A stretch of DNA of 64,000 nucleotides from Sphaerolaimus hirsutus (taxonomy: Eukaryota > Nematoda > Chromadorea > Monhysterida > Sphaerolaimidae), in contig OZ038458.1 of NCBI GenBank assembly GCA_964036195.1, forward strand, positions 17,063,832-17,127,831, written 5' to 3'. Below the pieces are notes generated by a model that was given only the letters and a program-made list of their open reading frames with translations, was not told the DNA's origin and made no database searches. This document shows, in pieces, positions 566 through 62,761 of the stretch; position 1 is the first letter of the stretch; every line of letters begins with the position of its first letter. The translations under genes were made by a program, and so were the position numbers.

Positions 566-677
566 TGGGGGCAGTCCCTTACCCTGTAAAATATCAAATG
601 TCATGTAAAGTGTAAAAGTCATGTAAAACGCCCTGCAAAATGTCAAACGTACATTTCGGGTCTGGGACTGGCACCAG
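566..677. mobile_element. Introner-like foldback element, outside a recognised gene
   Basis: It starts GGGGGCAGTCCC, ends GGGTCTGGGACTGGCACC, and the body is built of TGTAAAATATC / CATGTAAAGTG units. It belongs to the family that forms whole introns at 39290, 46919, 61055 and 61345. It lies just 3' of the candidate exon at 437-526. Read on the minus strand it begins CCTG then GTGCCAGTCCC, as at the TSEN54 copy, but the other side does not end in AG. Confidence 0.55.
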
Positions 678-5725: not shown

Positions 5726-6640
5726 CTACTGTGCAGAATAGTTGAGACTTTTCACACATAGAGAAACAGTAGGCTGGGGGTCCACCGCATTTTTTTGCTT
5801 CCCAATTTCTTATCCCTTGCCCAACTTTGATGCCGTTTGAGTATGTTGGGGTTAATCCCTAATCCCTGTTGCACCGTGAAACAATCGAACCCGCAAAGTT
5901 TATGTTTCAGTCGCTTTTGACAACCAGGCTAAAACTGTATTGGATGTTCGTGCTGTCGAGGATGTAGTTGATCCCTCCCAGCGGGCCGGCCGCCGCCACC
6001 GCAGGGAAATTATTACTATTTGACGGTTAGGGTCATTAAATGACCCTAACTCAAAAACACAGAATCCCTTGAAAACTGTGGCGCGTGGCGCCCTGCCCAA
6101 AAAGGGCGCCAAAATGGCGCCAGCAGGTTTTCAAGGCGAGTGTAGTGTAAATGGAAAAATAAAATAAAAATTAACACTAAGTCACTTGTCACAGTAGAAG
6201 GTACACCAAATATTTATACCGAAATGAAATATTTATTTTCAGCGACCAGGGCACTATTTCATATGTCAATGTAAAGTGTCAATTGTCATGCAAAGTGTCA
6301 AATGGGTGGGTAGAAATTAGAGAAATGGTTGATTACCGTCCCTCCGGCCCTGGAGACACTCAAAAATCCCAGTTTGCCTGCATCACAAAAGATGGGAACT
6401 GCTCAAATCGAAATGCAACAGTTTCCATCGTCGTGCAGCAGAGTGTACACCGTTTTTGGTGAAATTTGGTGAACACCAAATTTCTGCCACACTTGCCTGC
6501 ATTTTATGGGATCCCAGTTGGGCTATTTTAACATATATATTGCGGGTTCTGCAAGCACGCATGAAATGAAGAGTATGATGAATCTGATGTCTCATTCATC
6601 ACATGCAATGTGCATGTTAACAACAGGAAATATATACACA
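5726..6640. repeat. Repeat fragments, including third partial copy at 6316-6640
   Basis: 6316-6640 repeats 3975-4300. At 5978-6060 a GCCGGCC / TTAGGGTCA segment is an inverted relative of 7187-7260. A 6070-6115 tract has GGCGCC palindromes. An open frame at 5880-6021 looks protein-like but lies inside repeat sequence. Confidence 0.65.
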
Positions 6641-22998: not shown

Positions 22999-23147
22999 CT
23001 TGTGCCAGTTCCAGACCATGTAATGTGTAGTGTCAAATGTCATGTAAACTGTAAAGTAAAGTGTCAATTTTCAAAGTTTAGTAAAAATTTTTGTTTTGTT
23101 TTGATTGACATTTTACACTTGACAGGGTCTGGGACTGCCCCCTCGGA
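22999..23147. mobile_element. Introner-like foldback element
   Basis: Starts GTGCCAGTTCCAGACC and ends GGGTCTGGGACTGCCCCC, with TGTCAAATGTCATGTAAA units inside. Same family as the introns of the peptide genes. It is not inside a recognised gene. The sequence immediately 3' (ATCAACTCAGATTTTGGC) has a relative at 34651, so the target may itself be a repeat. A further right-end fragment (GGGACTGGCCCC) is at 23456-23468. Confidence 0.6.
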
Positions 23148-28401: not shown

Positions 28402-31400
28402 ATGGCGTCCAGTGATAGTGCGCCTGAATTGAAGCGCCCCCGCTTGGAGCCCCCCACTGAAAGTGGTGCGTTTTGGCTCGCGTGTATTTTGTCAACGGCA
28501 CTTTGAAAACTTTTGTTCATTGCAGAGCGGTTGCGCTGCCGCCGTCGCGACAGCAAACGCCAATTTGTAGTCTGCTCTGAGGTTGAACGGCCCATTTCGC
28601 TGTTTGTTTCAACTGAGTGTCGTGTGCATTTTTGAACGTTAACATGGCGGACATGATACCCTGCCCTCGCACTCATTTGTCTCGTTGGAAGCGTGCCAAT
28701 GATGATAAAGTATGCGATTTTTGTATATACCGTATATCCTCGAGTAAGACCCCGGGGGAGTTATTGTTTCTTCAGAGGTTTTGGAGGGGGAGTTATTCAA
28801 GGGGAGGAGTGATTTTTTCTCGGAACATGCACATGTTTCATTGTATGAATGCATTCCATCAACGCATGTAATCGAGGTATTTAACAGTTCAACAAAAACA
28901 ATGTACCTATTCATGCTAAAATCTGCGTTCATCAGCATCCAAATCATTCAAATACACATTGTGAATACAAATATCAAATACACAGAGGGGGGAGTTATTT
29001 TTTACTCGCCTGGCCAACATGGGGAGTTGTTCAAGGATATACGGTAAGATGAAAAAAATCATTTTTGTGAATAAGTTAACGTGTAGCGTTATAACAGAGG
29101 TTATTTTTCAACTTTTTATGAAAATCGCATGCGTAAAAAATGGTTTGCACGCTTCTAGCGGGAACCACACATGCAGGGTGTAAAGTGACTGGAGTATACC
29201 GTTTATCTTGGCCCTCCGCAGGAAAAATGCGTGCATTGGCGATATTGTACCCGAAACTGGCTGTTGCAAGCTGACACGAAAAATTGTGAGCTGTTGGTTT
29301 GTGTTGGCTTGTTTTGGCTGCCATGTTGGACAAATTTTGAAAACATGGTGCCCCGTACATTAGTTGACAACTGGCTTGTGTCAACTCACAAATTTAAAAA
29401 ATTAATGTTGGTGCGTAGTTCAAGTGCATAACGAAAAATACAGTTCCCGGTATTCAAAACAAGCCAACAGTATATAAAAATATGCTCCATCAAAATAGGT
29501 CGACCTGCCAACACCTCTGCGCAGGGCAAGCGCTACATGAGCATGGGCCGTCCTCTGAGCGGGCACTCGCCCAACTCGGCCTGCTGGCTGCTGTACCCCG
29601 AGGAGGCCTTGTTCCTGCTCGAGTCCGACCAGCTGCTCGTGTTCCACCGAGGCGCCCCCGTCACCGTGCAGCAAATGTACCACCTGGTGCCACTCCCGGA
29701 CACTTTTAAATGCCGTGTAAAATGTCAAATGTCATGCAAAGTGTCAAAAGTCATGTAAAATGCCCGGTAAAATGGCAAACTAGTTTGCCATTTTACTGGG
29801 TATTTTGCATGACGCGTGACGTTTTACACTTTACAGGGCATTTTACAGGGTCTGGGAGTGCCCCCTGGCGCTGAGAAAGCCCACCGAGAAGGCGGGGCCG
29901 GGCGAGCTGGCGCCGCTCACGCCGATGCATTATAGGGTCTATGTGCATTTGACCAAGGCCGGGTTCATTGTGAGGAGAGTGCATTTTGTGGATGAGGGGG
30001 CGGAGCTTGGAGATGCGGAGGGTCGTGGTCGGGAAGATGAGAAGGATAGTGATGATTGTGTCACCAAGTTGGTTATATTGTTGTTCAGCGGCCGGAGCTC
30101 TCTCTGCAAGTAAGCTTGCTCTACCAGTTGTTGCAGGCTGGAAGTAATTACGACCGCTATGCAAGTGTGCTCGTCCTGCAACGATGCACTCAAATAGCAT
30201 TGAAAAATGGGTATTTTTGTGAACATATAATCAATACAATCTCAGAAAATCTTTCAAAATAAAAATATAACTGAATCTATGTGACGGATAGCTAGCAGGG
30301 TTAGCATTGAAAAATAGCAGATTTTTATTTTTTAAATATAAAAGTATGTATAATATTTAGAAAAATCTTAAAATTTATCTGCATTTACTGCTGGGGTTTT
30401 ATCACCGAGAAGAAAATACAAATATATCATTAATATTTTCTCTGAAATTTTTTTCAGATAGATTGATTATGTTTTCATGTTGAGAGATTTTCTGAAATTA
30501 CATTTAATAATATTTTGTCATAATCACCCAATGCCAGCTGGGATGCATACTTGCCGGTCTAGTGGTTTTGCAGTGCGGATTATGTGCGAGCCGCTACTAC
30601 TTGCAGAGTGGTACAGGGTCTGTTCAGCCACAAAATGTCACGAATCTGTACATTTTCCCCATACTCAGCCATGCAGTAGCCGCCGACTCAGAATCGACAC
30701 CTACGACCCCTGCAGAAGACAAAAACAATGCTGCTGCGAAATCTGATATATCCGAGTCTGGAAGCCACCCACCAACACGCAGAGAAATATTGGATTACAT
30801 CCCGAGTGATCCTGGCGGCAAACGATTGAAGATGAGTGGCATTTTGGACAAGACCAGCGTGAAGTTTATGGAACCTTTCACGGAGAGACTTGGCGAGAAA
30901 ATGTCTATGTACTACGATCCTGATAGTGACGCGCTTAGACGGGGGGATTGGCGCAAGCGACTGAGGGTTAGCGTTTGGTTACTAGTATTTGGCATTTTTT
31001 CTTGGGTAGTGATGGGTAGTCTTGATGTGCAGCTCATCGATGTGTCCGACTCTCACATTGCATTTTTATGTCCGAGATTGTCTGAACATAAAGTTAAAAT
31101 TATGATGTACTGATTTTTCTAGTTCAGTTTTGAATGTGAAATGCACTAGCGTGCGGACATACTTTGCGGCACACACCGATTTTTTGAAATGCCCACTGTA
31201 TTTTTTAACTCATTTTCCTTGTTCAATTTCACTTGTTACACGATCGTTTGATAAAAAACGATATACAAACAAGCTGGCATAAAAACGGATTTCTTTGGCA
31301 GAAATCACAACCTAAAAAATATTCACATATAAAAAACACGTATCAATACGTTGTTTGTCACGTCATATAAAACTATTCTCTCTCTATAGACACTCCTGGT

Positions 31401-32563
31401 CCAGTAAAAAATCTCATTCAATTGTAAAATAGCGCCATGGCGCCAAGTTCTGGTGCTTTTCACAACCCCACCCTCCAACAACCAGGACCGGCGGCAGCCG
31501 TGCCGTCCTGGCTATTTGAAACCGCTGCCGCGCCAACTGGCGAACACATCCGGCTGGGCGGAGTACCGGCTGGCACGTGAGGCACAGCACTTTGATCGCA
31601 ACTTGACGCAAAGTTCCGTGTGCCACACGGACGCGCAGAACGACGAGAACGAGCTTACATTTGACGTGCACAAACCAATGGCTTCCAATGACTTTAAAAG
31701 GAACATGATCCCGGATTACCGCTGCATCGTGTCGCAGTAAGTATTTTTCTGATTAAATATTTTTTCCTGTGTCAGACACCTTTTTGGATTAACCTCACAC
31801 ACCCTGTGACGGTTTGAACCACACCAGGCCCCAGGTTTTTTTAGGCAGGCACGCCCGAAAACGAAGGGCATGAGGGCGAGCCTGTCCCATTACACATGTA
31901 AACCCATCACGCATGTAGATGGGTTTCCCCTCACGCCAGGAAAAGTCGTTAAAATTCTAACATTACCTAAGCGTTTATAAAATATCTTCTATCTACAGCA
32001 CCATTATTATTGGTACTATCAGCATTGGTCCTATGATTATTGGTATTGGTACTATTAGCACCATTATTATTCACTTCATTATTGTTCAATTTTATGCTAA
32101 TTGTACCTGAAGTTGCAAATTTTCTACTTTTTATAGATTTTCACGTTTAAAATCACTAGGTCATGTCATGTGCTTTATTGCATATTTTCAGCATGCCAGG
32201 TATAGTTAAATGCATGCCGGGTCTACATGCCTGATGGGTTTACATACGTAATGGCCCACGCCCCGCGCATTTTACAGTGTATTTTAAATGACATTTTACA
32301 GTGTCTTTTACAGAGTCTGGGACTGTCCCCAGAGTGCCTCAGCTTTTGAGCGTTCTGGGTTTTCGTTCGGTTCCCAATTCGCATTCTCCACAAACAAACC
32401 TTCACAAACAACACTTCCCAGGGGCACGTGGCCTTCGGAGAGTCGCATTCGCGCAGCCGGTCGCTTGTTCGCGCGGTCGACGGGCGCGAGCGCGTCCCTG
32501 CCCGTCAAGGTGGCCGTCGTGTCCGCGCACAACGTGCTCGTCTACGATGTGACTGTGGCTTAG
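28402..32563 (+). CDS. TSEN54: tRNA-splicing endonuclease subunit Sen54
   Basis: TSEN54 is a structural subunit of the nuclear TSEN complex that excises introns from pre-tRNA. Proposed exons: 28402-28465 (MASSDSAPEL start), 28526 to about 28617-28623 (ERLRCRRRD...VERPISL, like the N-terminal helix of TSEN54), 29525-29686, 29889 (or 29868)-30109, 30669-30966, 31486-31736 and 32335 (or 32314)-32563. Diagnostic stretches are LLYPEEALFLLESDQLLVFH, HYRVYVHLTKAGFIVRR and, at the C-terminus, TFDVHKPMASNDFKRN and VKVAVVSAHNVLVYD, each matching the human protein in order. Splice phases agree from 29525 to the end. The exon linking 28620 to 29525 (about 13 residues in human) was not found. An ATGGCGGACATG frame at 28643 lies in that gap. 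Introner-like sequence interrupts the coding block at 29687 and supplies or adjoins the last acceptor. Confidence 0.85.
28740..29044. mobile_element. CCGTATATCC...GGATATACGG TA-flanked element, TSEN54 intron
   Basis: Inverted ends CCGTATATCCTCGAG and GGATATACGG are flanked by TA on each side. Internal units read GGGGGAGTTATT. A diverged subfamily of the CCGTATT elements, lying in the second TSEN54 intron. Confidence 0.75.
29687..29867 (+). mobile_element. Introner-like element interrupting TSEN54 coding sequence
   Basis: Starts GTGCCACTCCCGGACAC immediately after CACCTG (codons Y-H-L) and ends GGGTCTGGGAGTGCCCC followed by CTG GCG CTG AGA. Deleting 29687-29867 restores a continuous frame, MYHL then ALRKPTEKAGPGELAPLTPM, so the element sits in a once-continuous exon with CCTG on both sides. 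Read through, it stops the frame. Excision at the exact element end would need a GT...TG intron; the next in-phase AG (29887-29888) gives a GT-AG intron that drops seven residues. Confidence 0.75.
32265..32334 (+). mobile_element. Introner remnant at the last TSEN54 acceptor
   Basis: CATTTTACAGTGT repeats lead into GAGTCTGGGACTGTCCCCAG, the right end of the introner family, immediately before the final TSEN54 exon. The donor of this intron (GTAAGT at 31737) is ordinary and no matching left end is seen, so only the 3' half survives. In-phase acceptors are TTTTACAG (exon from 32314) or CCCCAGAG (exon from 32335). Confidence 0.6.
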
Positions 32564-33273: not shown

Positions 33274-36200
33274 ATGAGCTCAGCTTTGGAGAGGATTCGT
33301 GCGCGCAAGCGAAAAGTACAGGAGCTCATAGAGGCAGTTACTGGTCATTCCGATAAGGTACACTTCCAATGTTGTGGGTAGTCCTTGTGTCACTCTTATG
33401 GCCAGATATCGATATTTGGAAGTGTGCCAATTGTGATCTTCCCGTCCACAGGCGGAACCTTCATCTGGTGATGTCCCATTTAAGGAGCCCGTAGATCGCG
33501 CTAATGATGGGGACAAGCCACATGAATCGCAGGTTGTTTGCAATTTCTGAACTTGAGCATAAGTACCTGTAGACTGAAGTGGGGATGGCCGGGTTTTTTT
33601 CAACCGTCTTTAAAAAACCAGGCATCGAAACCGTTTTTCAACTCAACCATATGTGGGAGCTTTTAAAAAAACAGTTTTATCTTTTTAAAATCGTTTTAAA
33701 TAAAAAAAACGTCTTAAACTAAGAAGAAATGTTTTTTAAACAGTGTCGATAAAAAACATTTTTTCGCCATCCGTAGACTGAATGCGGTGGGGTGATATTT
33801 TATATGGCTTTGATCTTTTGGAAACAGTTTGGGCCTGACCAATACCCCGAATCATCACAGGAAGCTTCTACCTCGGCGGAGTGCGAACCACCATCAACCA
33901 AGATGGCGCCGATTAGCACCTCGAAAAGCGTCAAGCCGAACATCGACCAGTTGCTGTCTGCGCCCACCGCCAAGGAACTCCAGTCGCGGCAGACGGCAAA
34001 CCAGATCGCCGCACTGATAAATTGTCCCACTGTCAAGGTGCTATTGATGCTGATAGACTATGTGGGAAAAGCCCCCCCCCCGCCAAACCGCCCAGCTATC
34101 TATCTATCCCTGAGGCAAACATTTTGGCTACTATCTCCTTAATCCCCCACCCAAGCCCTAAAAAATTTACACCTTTTTGCATCCACAATTTTCATAACTT
34201 TTTATAGATTTTCACCCTCAAAATCACTAGTTCGTGTGTTTTAGCGCCTATGTTTAGCTTTTTTGTACCCCCCCCCACTTTTTTCAGCTATCTATCTGTC
34301 CGTAGGAGCGATTTGCTATATATCAAACCCCCCGTATTGTCAAAATCTAGAATACCCCTGCGATAGACTTTGGATTTGTACATTCGCATTGAGATGCCAC
34401 GCGTTTCATTTCGCAGGAGTTGGCCGTGCAGCGGCAGTTTCGTAGCGACGGCTGCGGCGTGCGAGAATTTTGCCAGTTTGCTACCAGACAACACTGCGCT
34501 AAGGTCGTAGACGTTTTATGCTTTTTCTCTGCGGATAAGCCCAGACATACACCCTCCAATCACCATCCAATAATTTGCCACCTATTTGTGTATCTGGAAT
34601 CGCGATTTATTGGCGGTTCACACACAAGTTGACATGTGTGTCAACTGGTCTATGTCAACTCAGATTTTCGCTTCACCTGTCGCAGAGCGATCTCCAAACG
34701 CACAAGCGACAATATTGAAAATAAAATTTTTACAGTGTGCGGGCCAACATAAACTTTTTGAACACCTCCAAGACCCATATTCTGGCGACTTTTTCCTTAG
34801 GACCTCACTTCCACAGTGGAATTACGCAATTTTTTCCGTGCAGCGCGGAAGTGGCGCCCCTTGTGACCGACTGCATTTTCGTCGCATCGTACAGCAGCAC
34901 ACCGACCTTTCACTTGGTGACTGTTCGTTTCTGAACACGTGCTTCCACATGAACACTTGCAAGTTCATACATTATGAGGTGGGTGATTTGAACAAGTTTG
35001 GGGCGTTTGAATGAAGTCTCAGTTTGGATGGACTTTTCACATTTGATATCATGCTAGGGTTCAAACGGGATCCCTAATCCCGAAAGTTTTCAGCATTTTG
35101 CGGTTCAGATCCTGAAACCCCGAACCCGATTCCGAAATCTAAAAAAACGAATCCGTATCCCGGACCCCGGTCCGAAAATTTTCACATGCCGATCCCGAAA
35201 AAAATTATATCACCCCGATCACGGCAAAATTTACCAGCTTAATAAAATGCCATTTTTGCACTAAAAAATGTGGGCAGAAACCTCAAGTTTCCACTTCATG
35301 CTATTTTTCTGGCATCCAGATGTGTTTTAGACCATTTTTATGACAAATAAAAATAAAAATCGTTAAAATTAGAACTTTTTCCAAAATGCCGATATCTATC
35401 CCGAAAAATGCCAATCCCGATCCGGTGCACCAATCTCATCCCGGAATCTAAAAACAAAAAACAATCCAGATCCCGTTTGAACCCTATATCATGCCATCCT
35501 ATATATCTCCTTGCTCAGGTAGACTATTCAAGGGGTAAGCAGGCGGATGAGAAAGGTAAAGTCACGCGTATAAAATCCAAGACAAAGTCCACTGATGTGG
35601 TTGCAAAAGTGTCCGCTGTTCCTGATCCAGCTATTGTGTCAAAGTGCAGTGGGATCAAGATGTGTCCACCACAGGTAATGACTTTTCATCGTTATTTACA
35701 CTTTCCTATTTCGAGCTTGAGGCGAACAGAAATATTCAAATTAATTTTCAGATTTGAATTAAAGTCACATCTAAATAAACTTTTTGGCTCTTTATTTTAT
35801 AGGTTTTAGGTTTTTTTTTTTCAAGTTATGTTTACTTAACAACTGTAACTAGACCCTGTAGCCAGTTCCGCACGGTGTGTATAGTATAGTACCGTGATAA
35901 GTTATGTATCAAGTTAACTTGCAAGTGAAAATACAAGCCTATCTGTTAATCGACAAGGTAAAGTTCCGATTTCCCACTGATTACACTCAATCACACTCCC
36001 CAACCCCCCCCCCCCCCCAGTGGATCGCGTGCGACCTGCGCACATTCCCGCTGTCGATCCTGTCACAGTGCGCCGCGGTGGTGATGGCCGACCCGCCGTG
36101 GGACATCCACATGCAGCTGCCCTACGGCACCATGGGCGACGACGAGATGAGAGGCTTGGACGTGGCCTGCTTGCAGAGCCAGGGACTGTTCTTTCTGTGG

Positions 36201-37896
36201 GTCACTGGCAGGTGGGTGCTGGGTAGGGTGTCAACTTTCCGTGTTTTTCCGTTTTCGACAGGCGAAAGCGAAATAAATTTCCCTTTCCTTTTCCGGTATG
36301 TGCCAAAAAACTTATGTTTCAGTTTTCTGTAAAAAAATGTTTGATTAGTGAGGCTGAATGTGCGCAAGAAATACCAATTGAATATTGTCTTTCACTTAGT
36401 ATATAATTCATAAAACCATTTTGGAAACGTGTAGAATTTTTCTCAAATTATTTTTTAAACTTCAATGCGATAAAACAAAACCCGTATAACATGGCGACTT
36501 CATCTCACCATCATCAACTAGATGACGTTGAAATGCATATCTGCCAAAATGGGAACATCACATTTTCCCACCCATCACAATTTCCAACCTTCACCCAAAA
36601 ATTCCCCCCCCCACAAACCCAAAACAACCCCCCCCCCCCCCCCAAAGAGCGATGGAACTAGGTCGATCCTGTCTACGCCAGTGGGGCTACAGCATCGTGG
36701 ACGAGTTGGTCTGGGTGAAAACGAACCAGTTGCAGCGCATCATCCGCACCGGCCGCACTGGACACTGGCTGAACCATGCGAAAGAGCATTGTTTGATCGG
36801 TGTGAAACATGGCACTGATTTGAGTAGGTTTGCCAAGGTTGACTGTGATGTTATTGTCGCTGAGGTGAGGTTTTTTGGATTTTTTTTTCAAATATTTTTT
36901 TATAAAATTTTTTCTTTCATTGTTTTTATTTTTGGTAATTTCGTCTCGTGAGGAATTCAATTTTATACTGTAAATGCAGGTGCGGGAGACGTCACACAAG
37001 CCGGATGAAATTTATGGACTGATAGAACGGTTGGCGCCGGGTGAAAGAAAAGTGGAATTATTTGGCAGGCAACACAATCTACAGCCGAATTGGTTAGATT
37101 CTTACTAGGTTAAAATTCTCCCTCATTTCAACAAAGAGAATAATGTTCATTCATTCGAATACTGTAGTATATAGTGATTGAAAAGGCACCGGGAAGTATG
37201 GTACTGGTGTTCCTCGATGCACGGCACTCGATACTATTGTTTCACTTATCTCATCTTCAATTTCAGGATCACATTGGGTAACCAATTGGATGGAGTACGA
37301 CTGCACGACCCAGAAATAGCAACCAGATTCCATGTTAAACACCACATTCTCTTTACTTTTCACCATGGGTATTCTAGATTTTGACCCTCCTGGGGGTTGG
37401 ATAGATAGCAAATCGCTCCTCCGGAGGGATAAATAGCTGACAAATTGGGGGGGGCGGTTCGCGGGGGTTCAATATATAGGCTTTTTCAAGGTAAAGAAGG
37501 GAGAAAAATTGTTAAAAGTAGATGAGAAATGGCTAAAAATTGGTATTTATATAAGCACATATAGTACTAAAAATAGATGAAAATAGGCAGTTAGAAACAT
37601 GAACTAGTGAGTTTGGAGGTGAAAAGCTATAAAGATGTATGAAAAATAGCGATTTTGAGCGAAAATTGTGGTATACTTTCTCAAAAATCGATCCAGATAG
37701 GTAGGGGATAGTAGCCCCCCCCCCCCAAACCCCCCCTTACCTACCCCTGCTTTTCATCGAATCAAGTAAGAAACAACGTAATTAATTTTCGCAGGAACGC
37801 TTCCCCGACGGCCGGTGCATGCCCGCCGCGCCCAGTGCGTCTGTCCGCCCGAAGACTAAGGCACCGGGAAACAAGCCGCTCAAACGGAGACTGTAG
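33274..37896 (+). CDS. METTL3: N6-adenosine-methyltransferase catalytic subunit
   Basis: METTL3 transfers methyl from SAM to adenosine N6 in mRNA, in the nucleus, as a heterodimer with METTL14. Eleven exons, all phase-consistent: 33274-33357, 33452-33532, 33828-34037, 34417-34503, 34844-34978, 35519-35674, 36021-36211, 36648-36864, 36980-37092, 37267-37333, 37795-37896; predicted 480 residues (human 580, the shortfall being N-terminal). Visible: an N-terminal basic helix; a coiled segment ([20 protein letters not shown]); two CCCH zinc fingers with C144/C152/C161/H165 and C181/C187/C193/H197; catalytic DPPW at 275-278; the [20 protein letters not shown] stretch; and SAM-contact residues in [12 protein letters not shown] and GNQLDG. 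Exon 3 could start at 33861 instead. Exons 7 and 8 follow unusually long C runs. Introns 3, 5 and 10 hold TIR or GATAGATAG repeats. All key catalytic residues are intact. Confidence 0.97.
34062..34375. repeat. GATAGATAG-type repeat in METTL3 intron 3
   Basis: Contains CAGCTATCTATCTATCCC, GGCAAACATTTTGGCTAC and CAAAATCTAGAATACCCCTG. The inverted relative is at 37362-37750 in intron 10. Confidence 0.75.
35055..35486. mobile_element. hAT-like element with ATCCCGA units, METTL3 intron 5
   Basis: TIRs TAGGGTTCAAACGGGATC / GATCCCGTTTGAACCCTA lie inside an exact 8-bp duplication TATCATGC (35047-35054, 35487-35494). Subterminal units are AATCCCGA / GATCCCGAA. No transposase. It ends 32 bases before exon 6. 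Related pieces occur near 48600 and 58150-58310. Confidence 0.85.
37362..37750. repeat. GATAGATAG-type repeat in METTL3 intron 10
   Basis: Begins GGGTATTCTAGATTTTGACC and runs through GGATAGATAGCAAATCGCTCC to a C run, inverted relative to 34062-34375. It fills most of intron 10. Confidence 0.75.
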
Positions 37897-39124: not shown

Positions 39125-39485
39125 TCACTTGTTTCTCGGCCTTATCTGAAGTGTAGCTTTAGTTTTAACCTGTTTAACCTGTACGATCGCACCGGGTTCG
39201 TCGCACTTGCACCATTCTTGATACCCTTCGCCCCTGTTGCAATAGCAGATTTGCGCGTGGGTGCCGCACGTGACGCTCACCAACAACAACTGGGGGCAGT
39301 CCCGGACCCTGGAAAATGTCTAATGTTACGTTGTAAAGTGTTAGAAGTCATGTGAAATGCCCTGTAAAATTACAAACACGTTTGTCATTGCACAGGACAT
39401 TTTACATGACTTTTGACACATTGCATGACATTGGACAATTTACAAGGTCTGGGACTGGCACCAGAATGGGTAGCAAATGATTCAT
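39125..39485 (-). CDS. Small secreted cysteine-rich peptide (paralog B)
   Basis: Two exons, 39485-39462 and 39289-39125, give 62 residues. Exon 1 encodes only MNHLLPIL; exon 2 continues the signal peptide (LLLVSVTCGTHAQ) and the mature part with CYCNRGEGYQEWCKC, pattern C-x-C-x9-C-x-C, then a basic tail ending RPRNK. No known family recognised; by signal peptide and size it should be secreted. The intron (39461-39290, 172 nt) is exactly an introner-like element, splitting the signal peptide between codons 8 and 9. A TATA box is 164 bases upstream and AATAAA 200 bases downstream. Closest relative is the gene at 46733; a more distant one is at 61011. Expression is unproven. Confidence 0.8.
39290..39461 (-). 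mobile_element. Introner forming the whole intron of paralog B
   Basis: On the minus strand: CATTCTG then GTGCCAGTCCCAGACC ... GGGTCCGGGACTGCCCCCAG then TTGTTG. The intron and the foldback repeat are coextensive. The body is a near-palindrome of TGTAAAATG, TGCAATGTC and CATGTAAAATG units centred on AACACGTTTGTCATT. Same position and same 172-nt length as in the paralog at 46919-47090. Confidence 0.85.
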
Positions 39486-39648
39486 GGTGTCAGTATTGGT
39501 GTCTTACCGCTCTGCCTCGTTCGCACTGATTTTTTAAAAATCTGAATGTAGGTAGGCGTTGGAAATATTTATAGTGATGGGGGTAACAAAAGCAGAAAGA
39601 TTCGCTCTAAGGATGATAAAACCAAATAAACGTAAGTGTGGATATCGC

Positions 39649-39655
39649 TTTTATA
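39649..39655 (-). promoter_or_regulatory. TATA box of paralog B
   Basis: TATAAAA on the minus strand inside a block (TCTGTTATAAAAGCGATATC) conserved upstream of all three peptide genes. Confidence 0.65.
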
Positions 39656-39809
39656 ACAGAATCAGCAGTGCACTGCACAATGGCATGTGATTAGGATATT
39701 TTAATGCGCATGGATGTATTGTGTTTGCAGGTACTTAGACAAAACTGAATTCAAACGATTTTTTAAATCAATGTTTATGTCTTTGTGACTATTATACTTT
39801 AGGTAAATA

Positions 39810-40201: not shown

Positions 40202-40690
40202 TATGCTGCATTTGCAGTTCTGAACGGCGAATCGTTCTGAACATCTGCCTGTAGATATTTACTCGCAATGCAATGTACCGTATTTACTCGAATAATTCCC
40301 CCACTTGAATAATTCCCCCCTCGAATAATTCTCCCCTGTTAGATGAGTGAGGAAAAAATAATTCCCCGGGGGAATTATTCGAGTAATTTCCTCGAAATAC
40401 CCCCCCCCCACGAAATACCCACCTCAAAATGGCCACTGAATTTATAACCCGCCTCCCCCAAATTGAGTGTAAATGACAAAAGCTGCGGTTTGTGGGCAAC
40501 ACAGAACACACGTTAGAAACAATGACTGTGTTATGTTAGAACAGGGTTTATACCATCTACATACCAGAGTTGTTAAAAGTACTGAACTTTTTCAAAGTAT
40601 ACTTGAACGTAAAGTATTTATCTTTTACTCATCCCCCAAGTACAGAAAACGGAAAGAAATGTTCGTAAAGGTACTTTTTCCCCGGATAGG

Positions 40691-46732: not shown

Positions 46733-47114
46733 TCATCCAGAATGTAACTTGTTATTCAGATTATACCTAAGTGTAGGTATACCTTTAATTTCGTCTAACG
46801 ATTTAACCACGACTGCGCCGGCGTGCTTGCAGTTGCACCATTCCGGGCCGTGGCTCTTGTCGATGATGCAATAGCAGATTTGCGCGTGGGTGCCGCACGT
46901 GACGCTCACCAACAACAACTGGGGGCAGTCCCGGACCCTGGAAAATGTCTGAAAATGTTTTGTAAAGTGTCGGATGTCATGTAAAATGCCCTGTAAAATG
47001 GCAAACACGTTTGTCATTGCACAGGGCATTTTACATGTCTTTTGACACATTGCATGACACGTGACAATTTACAGGGTCTGGGACTGGCACCAGAATGGGC
47101 AGCAAATGATTCAT
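46733..47114 (-). CDS. Small secreted cysteine-rich peptide (paralog C)
   Basis: Exons 47114-47091 and 46918-46733 give 69 residues: MNHLLPIL, then LLLVSVTCGTHAQ completing a signal peptide, then CYCIIDKSHGPEWCNC (C-x-C-x10-C-x-C) and a longer tail ending KLHSG. Signal peptide and intron are as in paralog B, but the mature part and tail have diverged strongly (NRGEGYQ against IIDKSHGP). The intron is a 172-nt introner-like element at the same site as in paralog B. Duplicated with the end of METTL3. The TATA box is 608 bases upstream because a TTAA-flanked element sits in the leader. Function unknown. Confidence 0.8.
46919..47090 (-). mobile_element. Introner forming the whole intron of paralog C
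   Basis: GTGCCAGTCCCAGACCCTG to GGGTCCGGGACTGCCCCCAG on the minus strand, between codons 8 and 9 of the signal peptide. Orthologous by duplication to the intron at 39290-39461. Confidence 0.85.
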
Positions 47115-52079: not shown

Positions 52080-53560
52080 ATTTAGAGGGGGTCCCCATGG
52101 GGTGCCATTTTTGGGAGGTCTCCAGGGGGTGCCATTTTCTGGAGGTACATATGGGGGTGCCATTTCAAGGGGGTCCACATGGGATGCCATTTTTTGGGTG
52201 GTCCCCAGGGGTGCCATTTTTTGGTGGTCCTCAGGGGGGTGCTATATTTTTTTTTGCGGGGGGGGGGGTCCATATGGGGTGCCATTTTGAGGGGGGGTCC
52301 CCAGGGGGGTGCCATTTTTGGAGAGTCACCAGGGGGAGCCAACTTTGGGTGGGTCCCCAGGGGGTGCCATTTTTGTGGGGGTTCCTAGGGGGTGCCATGT
52401 TTGGGGGGTCCCCAGGGGTGCTATTTTTGGGGGGTCCCAAGGGGGTGCCATTTTTAGGGGGTCCCTAAGGGGTGCCATTTTCTGGTGGTCCTCAGGGGGT
52501 GCCATATTTGTGGGGCCCTAGGGGGTCCCATTTTTGGGCGGTTCCCAGGGGGTGCCACTTTTGGGGGGTTCCCCAGGGGGTGCCATTTGGAGGGGGGTCC
52601 CCATTGGGGTGTCAGTTTTTGCAAGCCTCTGAGAAGTGGGTACCTAAAGCAGGATTCTCTCCAACCTTCAGTTGGGTTTTGTAGAGTCACCAGGGGGAGC
52701 CAACTTTGGGTGGGTCCCCAGGGGGTGCCATTTTTGTGGGGGTTCCTAGGGGGTGCCATGTTTGGGGGGTCCCCAGGGGTGCTATTTTTGGGGGGTCCCT
52801 AAGGGGTGCCATTTTTGGGGGGTCCCTAAGGGGTGCCATTTTTTGCTGGTCCTCAGGGGGTGCCATATTTGTGGGGCCCTAGGGGGTCCCATTTTTGGGC
52901 AGTTCCCAGGGGGTGCCACTTTTGGGAGGTTCCCCAGGGGGTGCCATTTGGAGGGGGGTCCCCATTGGGGTGTCAGTTTTTGCAAGCCTCTGAGTAGTGG
53001 GTACCTATAGCAGGATTCTCTCCAACCTTCAGTTGGGTTTTGTGGTTCTCTACAATTTATACCACAAGGATTTACAAACACAAAAAGAACAGCAAAGCAC
53101 AAATGTAACCAATTGAAGATTACAACAAAGTTTGACACCTTGCAAAAACCACACTATCATATCACAAAACCTATACCACACAGAATGCACAGGGTCCCCA
53201 GGGGGGTGCCATTTTTGGAGAGTCCCCAGGGGGAGCCAACTTTGGGTGGGTCCCCAGGGGGTGCCATTTTTGTGGGGGTTCCTAGGGGGTGCCATGTTTG
53301 GGGGGTCCCCAGGGGGTGCTATTTTTATGGGGTCCCAAGGGGGTGCCATTTTTGGGGGGGCCCTAAGGGGTGCCATTTTCTGGTGGTCCTCAGGGGGTGC
53401 CATATTTGTGGGGCCCTAGGGGGTCCCATTTTTGGGCGGTTCCCAGGGGGTGCCACTTTTGGGAGGTTCCCCAGGGGGTGCCATTTGGAGGGGGGTCCCC
53501 ATTGGGGTGTCAGTTTTTGCAAGCCTCTGAGTAGTGGGTACCTATAGCAGGATTCTCTCC
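52080..53560. repeat. G-rich minisatellite, GGTCCCCAGGGGGTGCCATT units
   Basis: Units of about 29-30 bases (GGGGGTGCCATTTTTGGGG type) are organised in larger blocks of ~360 and ~540 bases: GGATTCTCTCCAACCTTC recurs at about 52651, 53012 and 53551. The strong strand bias in G makes long overlapping frames on both strands (glycine-rich on plus, proline/tryptophan-rich on minus); these are not genes. Confidence 0.9.
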
Positions 53561-53993
53561 AACCTTCAGTTGGGTTTTGTGGTTCTCTACAATTTATACC
53601 ACAAGGATTTACAAACACAAAAAGAACAGCAAAGCACAAATGTAACCAATTGAAGATTACAACAAAGTTTGACACCTTGCAAAAACCACACTATCATATC
53701 ACAAAACCTATACCACACAGATTGCACACTGCACACCATCATACCAAATCGCAAACTGTCTACATTTTACTACCGAGTTTCATGCCCAACCATTTTACAG
53801 AAGTTTACAAAAATCCATTCCAAAACATTGCATCTTTGGTATTGGTCTTGTTATTGTTGGTAGATTACATACCGCATTTCAAAACACATGCCTAGCATGT
53901 GGGCAAACTTAACTAAAGTATCATATTTTCTCCAATGGTATTAATTGTAGAGAACCACAAAACCCGACCGAAGGTCGGAGAGAATCCTGCTAG
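53548..53993. mobile_element. TIR element with AGGATTCTCTCC ends
   Basis: Left arm TAGCAGGATTCTCTCCAACC then GGGTTTTGTGGTTCTCTAC; right arm is the inverse (GTAGAGAACCACAAAACCC, GGAGAGAATCCTGCTA). The left arm is also the recurrent junction of the minisatellite blocks, so the element and the array have evolved together. 53994-54269 has nothing recognised. Confidence 0.7.
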
Positions 53994-61010: not shown

Positions 61011-61668
61011 CTATTTCGGTTGATTTTTCTCATAATCCCAAGTCTGATCGCCACCTGGGGGCAGTCCTAGACCCTGTAAAATGCCCTGTAAAATGTCAAA
61101 TGTCACGCAAAGTGCCAAAAGTCATGTAAAATGCCCTGCAAAATGGCAAACACGTTTGCTATTTTGCAGGTCATTTTACATGACTTTTGGCACTTTGCAT
61201 GACATTTGACATTTTACAGGGCATTTTACAGGGTCTGGGATTACCACCTGGCTCCACCGCCCTGACTGCTCCATCCTCATCACAGGGGCACCACTCAGTC
61301 CACGAGCCCCTGCTGCACTTGCACTCCAGCGGAAATGGGGGGTGCTGGGGGCACTCCCGGACCCTGTAAAATGCCTTGTAAAATGTCAAATGTCATGTAA
61401 GATGCCCTGGAAATGGCTAAATACAGGGCATTTTACATGACTTTTACGCTTTGCCTGACATTTGACATTTTACAGGGCATTTTTTATTACTTTTGACAAT
61501 TTGCATGACATTTGACATTTTCCATGGCATTTTACATGACTTTTGACACTTTGCATGACATTTTGCAGGGCATTTTACAGGGTCCGGGAGGGGCACCTGG
61601 TAGACGGCGGCGTAGGTGCTGCACGTCATGGTGACCACCAACAGCAGAATGGGCAGCAGTTTGTTCAT
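61011..61668 (-). CDS. Small secreted cysteine-rich peptide (paralog A)
   Basis: Three exons (61668-61597, 61344-61248, 61054-61011) give 70 residues, phases 0 and 1. Exon 1 is a complete signal peptide (MNKLLPILLLVVTMTCSTYA then AVYQ); exon 2 has ECKCSRGSWTEWCPCDEDGA, pattern C-x-C-x8-C-x-C; exon 3 adds a short tail ending KNQPK then TAG. Shared with paralogs B and C: MNxLLPIL, the TC before the cleavage region, and the C-x-C...W-C-x-C core. Both introns are introner-like elements, at positions where B and C have none. TATA box at 61801-61807. Family and function are unknown; toxin, antimicrobial or adhesive peptide are possibilities the sequence does not decide. Confidence 0.8.
61055..61247 (-). 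mobile_element. Introner forming intron 2 of paralog A
   Basis: Minus strand: GAGCCAG then GTGGTAATCCCAGACCCTG ... GGGTCTAGGACTGCCCCCAG then GTGGCGAT; 193 nt, a near-perfect palindrome centred on GGCAAACACGTTTGC. CCAG stands at both junctions. Confidence 0.85.
61345..61596 (-). mobile_element. Introner forming intron 1 of paralog A
   Basis: Minus strand: CTACCAG then GTGCCCCTCCCGGACCCTG ... GGGTCCGGGAGTGCCCCCAG then CACCCC; 252 nt, longer because the ATGTCAAATGTCATG arm is partly repeated. CCAG at both junctions. Confidence 0.85.
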
Positions 61669-61719: not shown

Positions 61720-62761
61720 TGGATAGTGATGGGGGTAACAAAAGCAGAAAGATTCGCTCCAAGGATAATAAAACAAAATAAACGTAAGTGTGGATATCGC
61801 TTTTATAACAGAATCAGCACTGCACAATATGGCATGTGATTAGGGTATTTTAATGCGCATGGATGTATTGTGTTTGCAGGTACTTAGACAAAACTGAATT
61901 CAAACGATTTTTTAAATCAATGTTTATGTCTTTGTGACTATTATACTTTAGGTAAATATGCTGTATTTGCAGTTCTGAACGGCGAATCGTTCTGAACATC
62001 TGCCTGTAGATATTTTCTCGCAATGCAATGTATTTACAGTATTTCCTCGAAATACCCCCCCCCCCCCCCACGAAATACCCACCTCAAAATGGCCACTGAA
62101 TTTATAACCCCCCTCCCCCAAATTGAGTGTAAATGACAAAAGCTGCGGTTTGTGGGCAACACAGAACACACGTTAGAAACAATGACTGTGTTATGTTAGA
62201 ACAGTGTTTATACCATCTACATACCAGAGTTGTTAAAAGTACTGAACTTTTTCAAAGTATACTTGAACGTAAAGTATTTATTTTTTACTCATCCCCCGAG
62301 TACAGAAAACGTAAAGAAATGTTCGTAAAGGTACTTTTTCCCCGGATAGGTGAGCAATTTCCCGGATAGGTGAGCAATTTCTAGAAATTTCGCTCCAATT
62401 TTCTCGCAAAATCACTAATTTTCAGAACGTTTTATCTATTAAGCTGAGATTACAGCTCAACGTGAATTTGACGTAAAATGACGACGTAAAATTATGTTGT
62501 AAAACCAATTACATGGGTGTGGATGATGCTACAAATCTACAATTTTTTATGGATAATATATGTATCAATACCTTAATCGTGTCCAATACTGAGCGTTGTC
62601 AGCCACAGCTAGAATGAATTGAAAAATTAAATTTTTTCATTTTACATCATAATTTTACATCAGGGAACTAATTTTTCATTTCAAATCAATGATTGCATGC
62701 AACCATTGACGTAAAATGTAAAATTAGTTCCCTGATGTAAAATGTAAAGCGTCATCCACAC
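61720..62761. repeat. Paralogous copy of 39590-41050 and 42232-42420
   Basis: The upstream region of paralog A matches that of paralog B in order (GCAGAAAGATTCGCT, GGCGAATCGTTCTGAACATC, AAAGCTGCGGTTTGTGGGCA, TCAGCCACAGCTAGAATG) but lacks three insertions present near B: 39810-40201, 40691-40851 and 41051-42231. Confidence 0.9.
61801..61807 (-). promoter_or_regulatory. TATA box of paralog A
   Basis: TATAAAA in TCTGTTATAAAAGCGATATC on the minus strand, 133 bases before the start codon, identical in context to 39649. Confidence 0.65.

Follow-up and report, generated by a model that had tools for sequence, protein, structure and literature searches.

Introners, transposon-like elements whose insertion makes an intron, have been reported from diverse eukaryotes, two animal groups among them, and copepods are mentioned in that connection (Gozashti et al. 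2022, PMC9860276). The elements described there have terminal inverted repeats and/or target-site duplications, their insertion makes the intron, and the splice sites are split between the element and the duplicated target, all of which would apply equally to the family presented here. In contrast, no family with CWG targets such as ours appears in the accessible portion of that report, although its supplementary tables may list one. In the alga Micromonas, the IE-B and IE-D introners, with 25 and 6 members respectively, have GT-TG splice sites (PMC3879977). As those classes are described, GT-TG marks the whole class, whereas in the present family the target triplet would decide whether it arises.

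Two other systems share structural features with the present element. The NuwaI group of PHIS (PIF/Harbinger-related) transposons, found mainly in animals, generates CWG target-site duplications (PMC4482050), as does the present element; the likeness lies in the duplication. The word intron is absent from the text of the NuwaI paper, whereas the element described here would itself form introns. The non-canonical introners of the dinoflagellate parasite Amoebophrya possess inverted repeats, through which the two ends of the intron can base-pair, and short direct repeats at their borders (PMC7789003). Both features recur in the present element; the borders of the Amoebophrya introners are highly variable, whereas here the GT is kept and an AG or TG is provided by the CWG triplet.

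Departures from the AG rule in animals are exemplified by the tunicate Fritillaria borealis, which has non-GT/AG introns, mainly AG/AC and AG/AT, and a duplicated U2AF; the same paper also speaks of introner transposons whose splice sites are weak (PMC13326754). The present animal would resemble it in having introns that escape the AG rule, at least those at CTG targets, and would differ in that its introns are GT-AG or GT-TG rather than of the main Fritillaria classes. According to the accessible text of PMC2374985, the human TG 3′ sites that were identified all served as alternatives to an AG close by. An animal introner family with CWG targets and a triplet-dependent splice site was not encountered in the literature searched, as far as its accessible parts extend.

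Here we describe a family in the nematode Sphaerolaimus hirsutus that is very probably such an animal introner family, copies of a transposon-like element acting as whole introns of coding genes. From the sequence we infer that the copies are spliced in the living animal, and the best reading is that the splice site is set by the target triplet, CAG versus CTG. A sequence-only reading of the locus had regarded introners in an animal as new in themselves, a claim that is superseded by their earlier publication in two animal groups.

Probable introner copies in the 64-kb window

The window, by which we mean the whole 64-kb stretch of DNA that was analysed, contains three paralogous genes, A, B and C, with four predicted introns between them (Table 1). 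The reading frames of all three genes are open after the introns are spliced out. All four introns are joined by blastn as copies of one foldback element, as the sequence-only reading had proposed, and two copies that it called non-intronic, the short and the diverged copy of Table 1, group with them. The sequences of all four agree in having GT at the left end of the element and CCCCCAG at the right end. Two refinements are required. Each intron, equated with a whole element in the earlier reading, corresponds to the element plus one copy of a duplicated triplet, the terminal CAG being read as target site. Likewise, the four introns are indeed four copies, but they represent only three insertions, because B and C are duplicated genes with the intron at the same codon. 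The B/C intron position is empty in paralog A, where ATTCTG and CTGTTG are continuous at the matching codon; absence of an intron position from a paralog was seen in this one case, A versus B/C.

Table 1. Candidate genes, predicted introns and element copies in the window (window positions)
Feature	Position	Strand	Details	Basis
Paralog A gene	61011..61668	-	exons 61597-61668, 61248-61344, 61011-61054; 70-aa peptide, signal-like start	sequence reading
Paralog A intron 1, introner copy	61345..61596	-	252 nt, GTGCCCC...CCCCCAG; CAG 61597-61599 (exon side), CAG 61345-61347 (intron end)	
Paralog A intron 2, introner copy	61055..61247	-	193 nt, GTGGTAA...CCCCCAG; CAG triplets 61248-61250 and 61055-61057	
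Paralog B gene	39125..39485	-	exons 39462-39485, 39125-39289; 62 aa	sequence reading
Paralog B intron, introner copy	39290..39461	-	172 nt, GTGCCAG...CCCCCAG; left CTG 39462-39464, right CAG 39290-39292	
Paralog C gene	46733..47114	-	exons 47091-47114, 46733-46918	sequence reading
Paralog C intron, insertion common with B	46919..47090	-	172 nt, GTGCCAG...CCCCCAG; left CTG, right CAG	
TSEN54-like coding exon, split by copy 29687-29867	29525..30109	+		Pfam and Sen54 chain matches
Introner copy inside TSEN54-like coding exon	29687..29867	+	CTG at 29684-29686 and 29865-29867	blastn
Short element copy	566..677	-		blastn
Diverged element copy	22999..23144	+		blastn
3′ fragment of element	32267..32332	+		blastn
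Further element fragment	6270-6302			blastn

The upstream flanks of A and B (39571-39809 and 40386-40690; 61723-61958 and 62041-62350) are 96-97% identical, compared with 81% in the first-exon stretch, which suggests a recent duplication or gene conversion. An 8-bp target duplication, suggested by the flanks of intron 2 of paralog A, was considered and rejected: it is not visible by eye in B, C or the other copies, and it is the triplets that agree statistically. The proteins of A and B have no Pfam match and that of B no homologue in a large protein set, so the case for introners rests on conserved genes elsewhere in the genome.

A seventh copy, absent from the list in the sequence-only reading, interrupts a TSEN54-like coding exon. 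The exon matches Pfam tRNA_int_end_N2 with an E value of 7.6e-4, under the curated cut-off, and this match stops before the junction; four Sen54 chains are matched, the best at E 5.9e-7, without a gap over the junction. Exact excision of this copy would give GT...TG. An AG is found nine bases upstream (GGGAG, with the cut before TGCCCCCTG), and its use would retain three extra codons. Elsewhere in the window, the open reading frames at 33792-36332 resemble METTL3 exons, with a DPPW motif in the frame at 35904. The region 52097-53675, which has long open reading frames overlapping on both strands and repeated peptide motifs, looks like repetitive sequence.

A dispersed element with CWG target triplets

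In the host assembly (348.5 Mb, 762 contigs), the 19-base element end at up to 3 mismatches has 20,060 matches (9,944 + 10,116), against 28 for the reversed control pattern. As the sequence-only reading had claimed, the element is dispersed; it is not confined to this locus. Because the pattern reaches both ends of each element at this mismatch level, we estimate that the genome holds about 10^4 copies. The 29-base left end, also at up to 3 mismatches, gave 4,843 + 4,751 matches and its control none, and a left-end scan of viral and prokaryotic contigs gave no matches. COX1, translated with genetic code table 5, has a best match at 89% identity, and the named matches taken to be insects among the 120 listed stand at 64-67%; by itself this comparison would make an arthropod likely.

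A sample of 118 loci yielded 115 unique copies after those with near-identical flanks had been merged, stretches being dropped unless both ends were within 6 mismatches. The element in this sample, GTGCCAGTCCC...GGGACTGCCCC flanked by a duplicated CAG or CTG triplet, is 109-402 nt long with a median of 187. In 111 of the 115 copies the ends pair with each other, and folding, much stronger than that of dinucleotide shuffles (median z -16.9, weakest -1.2, with 10 shuffles for each of the 115 copies), bears out the hairpin that the sequence-only reading had anticipated, a fold that might also help splicing. Median identity to the family consensus, calculated for 89 of the 115, is 0.90, and the copies appear to be fairly young.

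The duplicated triplets agree with each other far more often than by chance. On contig C1, where 59 of 109 right ends were without a listed left end, the remaining pairs comprised 25 CAG/CAG, 19 CTG/CTG, 5 CTG/CAG and 1 CAG/CTG (Fisher p 3e-8). In three of the four sets from which the sample was assembled (A, C and D; 84 copies), the corresponding counts were 26, 21, 9 and 2, the other 26 copies having other triplets. The bases flanking the target lean toward CCWGG, with C before it in 64 and G after it in 69 of the 115 copies. The element is short and non-coding, with terminal inverted repeats, a triplet target-site duplication and about 10^4 copies, which are the features of a MITE; the CAG or CTG duplication at its borders makes it look like one with CWG target-site duplications, as in the PIF/Harbinger-related NuwaI.

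By analogy, the mover of the element would be a Harbinger-like transposase. The Harbinger transposase family PF13359 has 163 matches in the genome, many of the copies being almost equal in score. Two of these loci were inspected, and they are without introner ends within about 1.5 kb, save for one stretch with 6 mismatches in locus L121 that is probably due to chance. The spacing of the PF13359 matches suggests an intron of ~190 nt, in which no introner ends were seen in the two inspected loci.

Copies inside coding sequence

A codon model with strict margins, trained on the same junctions, called coding sequence to the left and to the right of 48 of the 115 unique copies. Of these, 46 are in the sense orientation of the element (46:2); the other 67 copies fail the model. 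The loci were chosen by near-perfect ends, which biases the sample toward young copies and, for set A, toward coding ones. Coding copies made up 33 of 42 in set A (exact right end with CCGG), 6 of 31 in set B (left CTG), 3 of 19 in set C (right CAG) and 6 of 23 in set D (right CTG), or 9 of 42 for C and D together. Set A (L001-L008 and L039-L078) is also the set in which the right-end CpG is kept (TCCGGGACTG), and its 33 of 42 copies in coding exons compare with 15 of 73 in the other sets. Pseudo-junctions placed 900 bp away were coding in 6 of 83 cases, with a strand ratio of 3:3, compared with 22 of 83 for the real junctions in the 3-kb loci. If left unspliced, every one of the 46 sense coding copies would shift the frame or meet a stop. 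One of the antisense coding calls, L071, has GTGGCAC at its opposite end. Read along the coding strand this makes GT...CAG, so that L071 may not be a true exception to the sense bias.

Thirty spliced peptides, hand-picked and often chosen for the familiar look of a domain, were compared with Pfam. At E values up to 0.01, 16 were matched (9, 3 and 4 per batch of ten) and 14 matched nothing. In 14 of the 30 the match crosses the junction (L006, L004, L019, both copies of L009, L055, L078, L069, L059, L013, L071, L118, L045 and L065), and five of these 14 (L059, L069, L118, L065 and copy 1 of L009) fall short of the curated cut-off; in L003 the match stops at the junction, and in L054 it starts just past it. 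The I-set match of L078 and the Oscp1 match of L009 cross the junction over equal spans, and the Patched match of L045 (7e-21) and the permease match of L013 (6e-19) run across it. When compared with PDB sequences, the spliced L013 peptide aligns to SLC23A1 without a gap over positions 2-87, through the junction, and that of L006 aligns to the cholecystokinin receptor CCKAR with no gap at the junction. Both loci are outside the strict set, the codon model having chosen the wrong strand for L006.

The introner behaviour that the sequence-only reading had suspected from a few genes is supported genome-wide, at the level of gene structure, by domains that are contiguous after excision, by the 46:2 orientation and by the dispersal of the copies. 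The genome may contain hundreds to a few thousand introner-made introns, a total that is only a guess because the samples are biased toward intact ends.

Target triplet and 3′ splice site

The model that we favour for the origin of these introns, very probable in its introner core, is as follows. A non-autonomous, cut-and-paste MITE with CWG targets has reached about 10^4 copies, and part of these lie in coding exons. Where it enters a CAG of the coding strand in one orientation, a ready-made intron would result, in which the left end of the element gives GTGCC, and the CCCC of the right end together with the duplicated CAG gives the 3′ splice site. Splicing out the element and one triplet would leave the reading frame precisely as it was before. 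At a CTG the product would be a GT...TG intron, likewise excised from RNA though possibly less efficiently. A later T-to-A change in the right triplet would convert some GT-TG introns to GT-AG, and the introns of paralogs B and C would represent such a stage.

Exact GT-AG ends are present in 28 of the 46 sense coding copies, and their distribution follows the triplet pair: 15 of 16 CAG/CAG copies, 3 of 3 CTG/CAG, 0 of 13 CTG/CTG and 10 of 14 with other pairs. The 18 copies without exact GT-AG are the 13 CTG/CTG copies and five others, one GC-AG and the rest with other right triplets. Among exact left ends genome-wide, at least 2,450 have CAG and at least 2,090 CTG (CAG 54%); among exact right ends, at least 1,902 have CAG and at least 1,153 CTG (CAG 62%). 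The CAG excess at the right triplet is significant (chi-square p 9e-13), in a comparison of two different end patterns. CTG/CAG exceeds CAG/CTG in the paired samples, not significantly (5:1, p 0.22; 9:2, p 0.065), and divergence is somewhat greater in the CTG/CAG than in the CTG/CTG copies (12 versus 28, p 0.034, uncorrected). These patterns fit birth as GT-TG and later T-to-A repair, which would place the B and C introns among the repaired ones. We tentatively propose, as an account that falls a little short of probable, that each coding insertion is a draw, in which CAG yields a GT-AG intron at once and CTG a constitutive GT-TG intron with which the spliceosome copes until one T-to-A substitution mends it.

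The strongest competing explanation is that the exonic copies, at least those with CTG/CTG, are not introns but recent disabling insertions that have not been purged, captured in one assembled haplotype. The lack of GT-AG at the element ends of all 13 coding CTG/CTG copies and the fairly young age of the family are as this explanation would have it, and the coding CTG/CTG copies are nominally nearer the consensus than the CAG/CAG copies (0.931 versus 0.915, 12 each), a difference in age with p 0.21 in a test of low power. However, disabling insertions should ignore orientation, whereas the strictly coding CTG/CTG copies are 13:0 in sense (p 2.4e-4), and we consider this explanation rather unlikely. 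The strict CTG/CTG copies include L009 (Oscp1), L071 (DOMON) and L118 (NHL); L006 and L013 are additional CTG/CTG copies, in sense and with domain matches, beyond the strict set. Five of 13 CTG/CTG peptides are matched in Pfam (L006, L009, L013, L071 and L118) and eight match nothing. The persistence of CTG/CTG copies in the sense orientation suggests that coding copies at CTG targets, too, are taken out of the RNA, possibly at reduced efficiency.

Removal need not use the TG. It is conceivable, if a shade less likely again than disabling insertion, that splicing of CTG-target copies uses a canonical AG within the element and keeps extra codons, three in the TSEN54-like exon. An in-frame AG nine bases upstream, retaining three codons, is likewise present in 4 of the 13 strict CTG/CTG copies, and each of the 13 contains at least one in-frame GT-AG pair further inside, the use of which would retain a longer piece of the element. 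In contrast, 9 of the 13 have no in-frame GT-AG with at most 24 nt kept on each side. GAGTG was counted by eye 37 times at CTG and 26 times at CAG among the first 100 right ends listed, with no clear enrichment, and in the alignments of L013 and L006, both CTG/CTG and exactly excised, to their relatives in the PDB the junction itself is free of gaps.

Excision driven by an RNA hairpin instead of the usual splice signals, as proposed for the Amoebophrya introners, is improbable. The hairpin of such nonconventional introns (Amoebophrya or Euglena type) is present here, the ends pairing in nearly every copy, and direct repeats border the element ends as they do in Amoebophrya (PMC7789003). However, a near-palindrome would fold alike in either orientation, and the orientation bias together with the genome-wide preference for AG at the right end points to spliceosomal rules. 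That an ordinary dispersed repeat landed in pre-existing introns, which the 67 copies failing the coding model might suggest, can be set aside as highly implausible, there being zero intron sequence outside the element in A, B, C and the domain-crossing cases, and no intron at the B/C position in paralog A.

Dependence of the splice site on the target triplet is the reading that we prefer. The origin of new introns is a long-standing question, and few introners are known in animals. The present family, which numbers thousands of copies and reaches into conserved genes, provides matched insertions set apart by a single base at the 3′ splice site. One genome may thereby allow measurement of how far AG is needed, what a new intron costs and how it is repaired later. 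If the draw between CAG and CTG is correct, the genome of S. hirsutus would hold many natural GT-TG introns alongside their repaired descendants, a record of the tuning of introns after their birth.
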